Shown here piece by piece: positions 54,271-58,371 of a DNA stretch of 64,000 nt. The DNA is taken from positions 4,410,501-4,474,500 of the forward strand of contig NZ_CP011509.1 of NCBI RefSeq assembly GCF_001027285.1. Reading direction: 5' to 3'. This DNA is from Archangium gephyra (GTDB lineage: Bacteria; Myxococcota; Myxococcia; Myxococcales; Myxococcaceae). The notes below the pieces were generated by a model that was not told the origin of the DNA, did not search any database, and saw nothing but the letters and a program-made list of their open reading frames with translations. The stretch's first letter is position 1. Each line of letters opens with the position of its first letter. A program made the position numbers and the translations under genes.

Positions 54271-54360
54271 CACCCCCCTTCAATAGCCACGGACGGAGGG
54301 GGCGTGCCCGCGCACGCGAGGTGGCAGGCGAGCGCTCGCTCTTCGTGGGGCCTGGGCTCG

Positions 54361-55629
54361 CTACGACTTGCGCGGGAGGCCCGAGGCCGCGGCCGCCTCT
54401 CGCAGCTTGTCCTTCTTGCTCTTGCGCTTGCCCTTGACGCCGCCGTGCGGGTCCAGCGGCGGCGGGGCGAGCTCGGTCGGCTCGAACCCCGCGATGCGCT
54501 CCCGCGGGAGCGCGAGGTGGTGACGGCGCTCGATGAGCCGGAAGTGGGCCTCGGTGCTCGCGGTCACGAAGCTGACCGCCACGCCCGTCTGTCCCGCGCG
54601 GCCCGTGCGCCCGATGCGGTGCAGATAGTCCACGGTCGAGCGCGGCAGATCGTAGTTCACCACCGCCGGAAGCCGCGCGATGTCCAGACCGCGGGCGGCC
54701 ACGTCCGTGGCGACGAGCACCTTCACGCGCTGGGCCTGGAAGTCCGCGACCGCCTGCGTGCGCGCGCCCTGGCTCAGCTCCCCGTGCAGGGCCGCCGCGG
54801 CGATGCCGGCGCGATTGAGCTTCAGCGCGACGTGGTCCGCTCCATGGCGGCTCGCCACGAAGACGAGGACATGGGACCACGCGTGGGTCTCGAGGAGCCG
54901 GCGCAGCAGCGGTGTGCGCTTGTCCGTGTCCACCTCGATGGCGCGCTGCTCGATGGCGCGCGGCGCCTCGGGCTCGCCGGCGGGCGGTGAGGACGGCTCC
55001 ACGCTGACGCGGGTGGGCTCGTGCAGGAGCCGCGCCGCGAGCGTCCGTACCGCGGGCGGGAAGGTCGCGGAGAAGAGCAGGTTCTGCCGGCGGGCGGGCA
55101 GCAGCGCCAGCAGGCGCGTGAGCTCGTCGGCGAAGCCTGGCGAGAGCAGCTGATCGGCCTCGTCGAGCACCAGCGTCTCCACCGAGGAGAGCCGCAGCGC
55201 GTTCTGCTTCACGAGATCCAGGGCCCGCCCGGGCGTCGCCACCACCAGGTCCGCCCCACCGCGCAGGGCCATCATCTGGGGATTGGCCGAGACGCCGCCC
55301 ACCGCGAGACAGCTCTTCAGCGGCCTGGTGAGGTAGCGTCCGTAGCGGCCAATCGCCTCGGAGATCTGCGTGGCGAGCTCGCGGGTGGGGACGAGCACGA
55401 GGGCGCGCACCTGCCGAGGCATGCGGCCCGGGTGCGCGCTCAGGGCCTGAAGGATGGGCAGGAGGAACGCGGCGGTCTTCCCCGAGCCCGTCCCCGCGCA
55501 GGCCAGGACGTCGCGGCCTCCCAGCACCGCGGGAATGGCCTCTCGCTGGACCGGCGTGGGCGCCTCATAGCCGAGGTCTGCCACGGCACGGGCGAGCGGC
55601 TCCTGGAGGCCGAGGGAAGGGAAGGTCAT
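54361..55629 (-). CDS. DEAD-box RNA helicase, RhlE-like
   Basis: A 422-residue helicase. Q motif YEAPTPVQREAIP, Walker A AGTGSGKT, PTRELATQI, TPGRALDL, DEAD box VLDEADQLLSPGF, SAT, and second-domain motifs VATDVAARGLDIARL and HRIGRTGRAGQ. The short basic C-terminus (KGKRKSKKDKLREAAAA) and the absence of a DbpA domain suit the RhlE group, involved in ribosome assembly and RNA decay. The start is ATG 55629. Confidence 0.92.
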   Translation of the reverse strand: MTFPSLGLQEPLARAVADLGYEAPTPVQREAIPAVLGGRDVLACAGTGSGKTAAFLLPILQALSAHPGRMPRQVRALVLVPTRELATQISEAIGRYGRYLTRPLKSCLAVGGVSANPQMMALRGGADLVVATPGRALDLVKQNALRLSSVETLVLDEADQLLSPGFADELTRLLALLPARRQNLLFSATFPPAVRTLAARLLHEPTRVSVEPSSPPAGEPEAPRAIEQRAIEVDTDKRTPLLRRLLETHAWSHVLVFVASRHGADHVALKLNRAGIAAAALHGELSQGARTQAVADFQAQRVKVLVATDVAARGLDIARLPAVVNYDLPRSTVDYLHRIGRTGRAGQTGVAVSFVTASTEAHFRLIERRHHLALPRERIAGFEPTELAPPPLDPHGGVKGKRKSKKDKLREAAAASGLPRKS

Positions 55630-55773
55630 AGGGCGCGGAGACTACCCCGCCCAGACCTCCCATGGCATCCAGGCGGACAAGCGCCCGAGGCCTCGCACCG
55701 CAGACGAGGGCGAGGACCGCGGCTTCGCTCCCGGAGAGCACGTCCTTGGGGACCCCGCCCTCCGCCGGGAGCC

Positions 55774-57564: not shown

Positions 57565-57878
57565 GTACGCCCCCCCTCCGATACAGCGCGGACAAGTTCC
57601 GCCTCTCGGGTGGGAACGGCAATCGCACCGCGAGGCGGGCAGGGAAGTTCACCGGGCACGAAATGAAGCACCCCTCCACTCGACGCAGAAGGTTGGCGCT
57701 CCGGGGTGGATACGTCTTCCCTGTCGAGCAAGCGAGCCGGTCGGGTCTGGCCGTCTGTCTTTCAACTCCGGGTTCCGAGGGAGGGCGAGAAGGCGGCGGT
57801 TTCAGTGGGGACGCGGTTGGCCCGGACGCCACCGCTCCTGGGCGGGCGTGCGCTTTCCTCCACGCGAGCGCCAGAGGA
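57565..57878. other. Intergenic region upstream of the RiPP precursor
   Basis: About 310 bp between the divergent lipoprotein gene and the operator palindrome. I see no convincing gene; short frames here lack codon bias and family similarity. The GC content is ordinary until 57870, where it drops sharply. Confidence 0.5.
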
Positions 57879-57906
57879 ATTCCTGTAAATCATGATTGAC
57901 AGGAAT
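57879..57906 (+). promoter_or_regulatory. 28-bp palindrome overlapping the RiPP precursor -35
   Basis: The arms ATTCCTGT (57879-57886) and ACAGGAAT (57899-57906) surround AATCATGATT (57888-57897), itself a perfect palindrome. Over 28 bp only the A/G pair at 57887/57898 is mismatched. A consensus -35, TTGACA (57896-57901), lies inside the right half, followed by an AT-rich stretch (TATAAA at 57912-57917). This placement suggests a repressor or activator operator controlling the NHLP peptide 90 nt downstream. Confidence 0.65.
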
Positions 57907-57996
57907 AATAATATAAATGAGTATGCTCGGCGGGGGAGGCACTTCTCACGCCCAGGTCCCTGAAGTCATTCAACGACGAGAAGAGGACAACGACTC

Positions 57997-58287
57997 ATGC
58001 CTGATACGAAGAAGGGTGAAGCGTTCGCGAAGCTGGTGTTGAGGGTGTGGAGGGATCCGGACTTCAAAGCCAGACTGTTCAAGGATCCCATGCCGCTGCT
58101 GGCGGAGTACGGCGTCGAGACCCCGCCGGGCCTGAAGGTGAAGGTGGTGGAGAACGAGCCGGGGACCATCCACCTCGTCCTGCCGAGCGCTCCCGCGAAG
58201 GTCTCACAGCAGCAGGAGGAGCCCGTCTATACCATTCAGTGCGCTGTCTGCCATTCCCGCGACAGCTGTCTGACGCACCACAGCTAG
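57997..58287 (+). CDS. NHLP-type RiPP precursor peptide (orphan)
   Basis: A 96-residue peptide whose first ~70 residues match the nitrile-hydratase-alpha-like leader (NHLP) of natural-product precursors: LVLRVWRDPDFKARLFKDP, then EYGVETPPGLKVKVVENEPG and TIHLVLPSAP. After a Gln/Glu spacer the putative core is VYTIQCAVCHSRDSCLTHHS, rich in Cys (3), Ser, Thr and His, suitable for thiazole formation or thioether chemistry. The usual Gly-Gly cleavage site is absent. No cyclodehydratase, LanM, radical SAM enzyme or C39 peptidase-transporter is nearby, so maturation enzymes must be encoded elsewhere, or it acts unmodified. The start is ATG 57997 (AGAGGAC upstream). A terminator follows directly. 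Confidence 0.85.
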   Translation: MPDTKKGEAFAKLVLRVWRDPDFKARLFKDPMPLLAEYGVETPPGLKVKVVENEPGTIHLVLPSAPAKVSQQQEEPVYTIQCAVCHSRDSCLTHHS

Positions 58288-58324
58288 ACGTCTGATACCG
58301 CCGCAGGCGGGGTCACGAGGAGGG

Positions 58325-58345
58325 GCGCCCTTGATTCAAGGGCGC
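58325..58345. terminator. Bidirectional terminator after the RiPP precursor
   Basis: GCGCCCTTGA (58325-58334), a single T, TCAAGGGCGC (58336-58345): a perfect 10-bp stem (tip opens to a small loop), extendable by G-T and G-C pairs. It lies between the convergent precursor and the PPC lipoprotein. Confidence 0.65.
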
Positions 58346-58371
58346 TCTCCGGCCGCGCCAACCTCCTGGGC

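Follow-up and report, generated by a model that had tools for sequence, protein, structure and literature searches.

Gene Content of the Locus

The window, that is, the whole 64,000-nucleotide stretch of DNA analysed here (C1:4410501-4474500), belongs to a complete single-contig genome of 12,489,432 bases from a predatory soil bacterium of the genus Archangium. At approximately 4.4685 Mb of this contig lies a short open reading frame, hereafter referred to as the orphan, which starts with ATG, stops with TAG and encodes a product of 96 amino acids (Table 1). The tail of this product (18 residues) contains three Cys, three His and five Ser/Thr residues, with the Cys and His residues arranged as C-x2-C-H-x4-C-x2-H-H, and the C-terminal sequence quoted in the original prediction (IQCAVCHSRDSCLTHHS) is correct. 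The flanking genes are lipoprotein-like and lie on the minus strand, in agreement with that prediction. A second species, Archangium violaceum Cb vi76 (the sister genome, G003; L036, NZ_JPMI01000140.1), has a copy at an unrelated site that is 93% identical and carries the same tail. Judged from its sequence, the orphan is therefore a real gene, more than a chance open frame.

Table 1. Features of the orphan gene and its surrounding unit (positions within the window).
Feature	Position	Strand	Basis and remarks
Autonomous unit, 531 aligned columns	57817..58345	+	89.1% identical to A. violaceum Cb vi76 L036:9819-10349
Candidate promoter-like element, TTGACA-17 nt-GAGTAT	57896..57924	+	GAGGAT in sister; TTGACA conserved; under consensus-scan threshold
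Ribosome-binding-like AGAGGA	57982..57987	+	9 nt 5' of ATG; kept in sister
NHLP-family precursor gene, 96 aa	57997..58287	+	Open reading frame and profile matches
Structured NHLP domain, residues 1-65	57997..58191	+	Profile match and predicted structure
Linker, residues 66-78	58192..58230	+	No L(x)4L docking motif, no GG; 5/13 residues not shared with sister
Putative core / Cys-His tail, residues 79-96 (TIQCAVCHSRDSCLTHHS)	58231..58284	+	Identical in both species
Terminal hairpin, likely transcription terminator, no T run	58320..58349	+	Folds in sister too

A sigma-70 consensus scan of the upstream region gave no promoter above the threshold, and the promoter-like element is therefore only a candidate. 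No T-tailed terminator was found at the gene end; the hairpin there gave z values of -2.92 and -6.69 for the orphan and sister sequences, respectively.

A Single-Gene Unit in Two Archangium Species

At the DNA level, the window and the sister contig were alike only in the unit listed in Table 1, which comprises the upstream box, the gene and the terminal hairpin, and the sequence on either side was unrelated. Inside the unit, identity amounted to 94.8% in the open reading frame, 83.3% upstream and 81.0% downstream. The two neighbourhoods, with 84 and 37 called genes, had no gene family in common besides the orphan, and a conserved local partner gene was rejected on this basis. The orphan was present in two of the six genomes of the genus Archangium, the other four giving no match at E <= 0.001. 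At the same threshold, a search of 96 genomes of the family returned some match in 13 of them, a close match being found only in A. violaceum, and no further close copy was found among 195 genomes of the phylum.

Sequence matches to other genomes make the surrounding region look mosaic: the region of a DEAD-box gene in the window was 96% identical in genome G001 and a 596-aa gene was 79% identical in G002, both in other gene contexts. We found no clean empty insertion site, as neighbours on both sides of the unit sit in different contexts in congeners. A phage origin was rejected with no match in phages or viral contigs, as was a plasmid origin, since the plasmid matches were generic NHLP or nitrile hydratase (NHase) sequences of <60% identity. 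As separate observations, the DEAD-box helicase region (54341-55710), with its different context in G001, may reflect a recent single-gene exchange; a sequence of ~120 bp located ~150 bp 3' of the sister's unit (L058:15938-16057) has ~30 copies in genome G004, at 84-92% identity; and a sequence of ~540 bp (L058:11505-12058) occurs in several copies per genome in the five Archangium-genus genomes searched, at ~74-92% identity.

Family Membership and Predicted Fold

The orphan had been proposed to carry an NHLP leader, and this was borne out by the curated model TIGR03793 (leader_NHLP), which matched residues 8-75 with 56.8 bits against a cut-off of 50.9 (E 1.5e-15; 56.4 bits in the whole-genome search). 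The profile match thus places the orphan in the NHLP family through its leader. The NHase alpha model PF02979 also scored above its cut-off (62.2 versus 27.2 bits), although this model has no power to tell NHase from NHLP. On the other hand, the NHase alpha equivalog TIGR01323 gave 59.5 bits, far under its cut-off of 249.85, indicating that the orphan is not an NHase alpha subunit. The score for TIGR03795 (22.1 bits) was likewise far under its cut-off of 41.

The original prediction had named homology to a fragment of nitrile hydratase as a finding that would overturn it. Strong sequence similarity to NHase alpha does speak for a fragment of, or an accessory to, nitrile hydratase, but we consider this reading very improbable: besides the low TIGR01323 score, the alignment with NHase stops short of the CTLCSC metal site (the claw), to which the tail does not align, and the orphan is an autonomous gene with its own start, conserved in two species as a single-gene unit. 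Near it, no gene for an NHase beta subunit was noticed, short of a search by family. A fragment was thus rejected on the TIGR01323 score and the end of the alignment. The idea that the core is a remnant of the claw was also rejected, because the alignment ends earlier and an unmatched linker lies between.

A structural model of the orphan, predicted with AF2, showed helices at residues 4-19, 21-29 and 31-37 and strands at residues 49-54 and 57-61, with a mean pLDDT of 76-82 for residues 11-40 and of less than 50 for residues 64-84. The best structural match of this model in the PDB was not an NHase but the proteusin precursor MprE7 (8tb1; Foldseek E 1.7e-3, probability 1.00). In the VIA ranking, 8tb1 (Z 5.0) was followed by another proteusin, DprE2 (9cjx; Z 4.0). 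In MprE7 the leader is helical and rigid, while the tail lacks order (PMC10858898), as it does in 8tb1; the tail of the orphan is of low confidence in the model. These predictions give moderate support to a three-helix NHLP nucleus with a flexible C-terminus, as in the proteusin-type fold; the support is only moderate since the model was built from a two-sequence alignment and has an overall mean pLDDT of 61.

Processing Motifs, Linker and Tail

No GG, GA, AG or GS was present after residue 55 in either the orphan or its sister ortholog. The missing GG site had been taken as a hint of unusual processing. We found, however, that several myxobacterial NHLPs clustered with YcaO genes likewise lack GG, which makes it a usual rather than a strict feature, and NHLP-Burk precursors also lack it (PMC2887384), so that its absence is not special. 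The L(x)4L docking motif was also absent in both orthologs, the aligned site reading VSQQQE in the orphan and VSLLQE in the sister, as compared with LQDESL, MREVAL, LSDSEI or LQAVAL in most clustered relatives. MprC, the YcaO acting on MprE7, depends on both helix 1 and L(x)4L and does not accept the leaders of other NHLPs (PMC12455567). The absence of this motif in the orphan is nevertheless not decisive, since two precursors clustered with YcaO (L021 and L022) also have no L(x)4L-like motif.

Between the two orthologs, 2 of 65 residues differed in the leader, 5 of 13 in the linker and none of 18 in the tail, so that the linker is the sole fast-changing part of the protein. The overall dN and dS were 0.047 and 0.079, respectively. 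These values suggest purifying selection on the orphan, which, with so few substitutions, is not proved. Orthologous genes around a LanM locus shared by the two genomes showed dS values of roughly 0.10-0.36, and comparison with the dS of the orphan leaves both vertical descent and recent exchange possible.

One reading of the patchy presence in the genus is that the orphan is a stranded precursor, carried away from a RiPP cluster on a one-gene fragment and by now neutral or in decay. The non-syntenic single-gene form, the lack of docking and cleavage motifs, and the neighbouring genes, which likewise turn up one at a time in unrelated surroundings in congeners, are consistent with this. We nevertheless regard it as unlikely, as the frame is open, free of indels and better conserved than the attached non-coding parts (94.8% versus 81-83% DNA identity), and as the identical tail, the nearly identical leader and the hairpin formed in both copies suggest selection, albeit from few substitutions.

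RiPP Enzymes in the Genome

The orphan had been reported to have no maturase nearby. Local tblastn searches covering the window, 20 kb before it and 40 kb after it found no YcaO, LanM, radical SAM or SagB homologs, the radical SAM queries being four RiPP radical SAM proteins. Whole-genome family searches found no YcaO, LanM, C39 or MNIO gene within 150 kb of the orphan. The nearest C39 gene was located at 4.624 Mb (~155 kb away), the nearest MNIO at 4.707 Mb (~238 kb), the nearest LanC-like/LanM at 4.043 Mb (~425 kb) and the nearest YcaO at 2.616 Mb (~1.85 Mb). Thus the orphan status was confirmed, and the sister copy was similarly without a maturase on its 38-kb contig.

Elsewhere in the genome, several families of RiPP enzymes were present (YcaO, 4 matches; LANC_like, 4; C39, 8; MNIO, 5), and two of the LANC_like matches, at 8.18 and 4.04 Mb, lay in frames of ~1,080-1,100 aa, the size of LanM. 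A complete lack of RiPP enzymes, which the original prediction had given as a reason for abandoning it, therefore does not apply. The YcaO gene at C1:2616023-2616985 encodes a fusion of a TIGR03882 "TOMM precursor leader peptide-binding" domain and a TIGR03604 SagD domain, and adjoins TIGR03795 precursors. Such TIGR03882/TIGR03604 fusions occur in both orphan-bearing genomes; these NHLP-type fusions share, however, only ~46% identity and differ in the cognate precursors that they serve. The TOMM cluster around the fusion in the orphan's own genome (L062, C1:2613432-2618615) also contains an amidohydrolase, and two of its open frames each carry two tandem NHLP-like leader segments.

The LanM-type cluster at 8.18 Mb (L104, C1:8164000-8183900) has its own mersacidin/lichenicidin-family precursor (TIGR03898) together with a C39 transporter, and the sister's LanM locus carries orthologs of several of its genes. 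An MNIO route was rejected on a reading of two of the five MNIO loci: at the first, the MNIO gene adjoins its own secreted-type Cys-containing small protein, and at the second no NHLP-like open reading frame was noticed. At 4.77 Mb, an MNIO gene is accompanied by one for a small secreted-type protein containing Cys (L114:8177-8413), an arrangement resembling a bufferin pair.

NHLP Relatives in Other Loci

We examined ~16-20 kb around NHLP relatives in genomes of the family by tblastn with YcaO, radical SAM, SagB, LanM and C39-ABC proteins. YcaO and/or radical SAM genes were found close to the relatives at 13 loci (L063, L142-L145 and L148-L155), and the same was true of the TIGR03795 cluster in the orphan's own genome. 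In the sister genome, NCBIfam models identified TIGR03975 radical SAM and SagB as cluster partners. These results suggest that NHLPs of this lineage are normally RiPP substrates.

Outside the family, NHLP genes with no YcaO seen nearby were noted in genome G175 and on the Tistrella plasmid pTM2, indicating that lone NHLPs are not unique to the Archangium unit. The gene in G175 (L146:7376-7705) has GG and LSEDEL motifs, and the 16 kb searched gave no match to YcaO, LanM or radical SAM proteins. On pTM2, three tandem NHLP precursors (L147:11986-13055) adjoin a cyclic peptide export ABC transporter, and no YcaO is annotated within ~12 kb. NHLP precursors can be distant from their enzymes (Haft et al. 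2010, PMC2887384).

Discussion

Since its relatives in the family are RiPP substrates, the most likely single reading of the orphan is an autonomous NHLP-family RiPP precursor that is matured in trans, to which we assign a probability of roughly 0.45. According to this hypothesis, the protein would be a proteusin-type precursor in which a flexible linker joins a folded nitrile-hydratase-like leader to a short C-terminal Cys/Ser/Thr/His core, and its gene would travel alone, as an autonomous unit that brings along its own upstream region and terminal hairpin. We infer that the orphan would be expressed and its core modified by a RiPP enzyme that recognises NHLP leaders and is encoded at another site. 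The foremost candidate in this genome is the TOMM cyclodehydratase fusion at 2.616 Mb, a leader-binding domain joined to YcaO, which may recognise the folded leader. The release of an active peptide would then fall to some protease outside the GG-type C39 peptidases. The TIGR03793 score, the proteusin fold match, the identical tail and the occurrence of a leader-binding YcaO fusion in both genomes support this reading. Against it stand the lack of a local partner in either genome, the absent L(x)4L motif, the freely diverging linker, and the low identity of the two fusions with their different cognate precursors. Of the earlier interpretation, NHLP membership and orphan status held, whereas the proposed step by a distant promiscuous maturase fared less well, given the missing motif and the divergence of the fusions.

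Given the absent docking motif and the free divergence of the linker, there is a real chance that the Cys/His tail works unmodified. In this main rival explanation, which we consider possible but less probable, the orphan has ceased to be a RiPP precursor and encodes a small protein derived from an NHLP, whose folded domain is retained to act as a scaffold or to bind a partner and whose tail has, for instance, a metal-binding or redox role. Such a role would fit two orthologs devoid of GG and L(x)4L, a linker that diverges freely beside an invariant tail, and the lack of an adjoining maturase or transporter at either copy. However, the leader belongs to the same family as those of clustered RiPP precursors, and the tail matches no known family, its sole match being a sub-threshold one to the SorB cytochrome on CxxCH (E 0.061). 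Attachment of haem c is unlikely, since the sequence shows no evident secretion signal. A more specific form, in which a proteusin leader domain has turned into a stand-alone protein encoded by a mobile single-gene unit and its invariant tail is used directly, e.g., in metal or thiol chemistry, appears somewhat doubtful.

If the tail is modified in trans, as we prefer, a myxobacterial RiPP enzyme would serve a distant precursor without a known docking motif, and the orphan would test how far the folded NHLP leader alone suffices. If the tail is unmodified, an NHLP leader would have been repurposed as an ordinary small protein, which calls for caution in automated RiPP precursor calls. The pair of species renders this question testable.

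Distant or stray NHLP precursors have been known since 2010 (PMC2887384), and the orphan is a further example, its sole unusual feature being the two-species, motif-less, single-gene form. It resembles NHLP/proteusin precursors (TIGR03793; Haft et al. 2010; MprE7, 8tb1) in leader sequence, predicted fold and a flexible C-terminal part rich in Cys/Ser/Thr, but differs from them in having no Gly-Gly, no L(x)4L and no nearby enzyme or transporter, and in being a single-gene unit. TOMM precursors of the NHLP-Burk/BMA_0021 family (TIGR03795), which this genome encodes at 2.61 Mb alongside the YcaO fusion, also have an NHLP-clan leader without GG; the orphan is far under the cut-off of this family and has a longer Cys/His tail. 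With the NHase alpha subunit, it shares the common ancestry of the leader domain, but it lacks the CTLCSC metal site, is about half as long and is not expected to have an enzyme function. In prochlorosin/ProcM-like systems, one promiscuous, non-dedicated enzyme modifies the precursors, as would be the case for the orphan if trans-maturation is real. In contrast to the trans-maturation that we infer here, those systems combine a Nif11-type leader bearing GG with numerous precursors in each genome and a LanM of demonstrated promiscuity.
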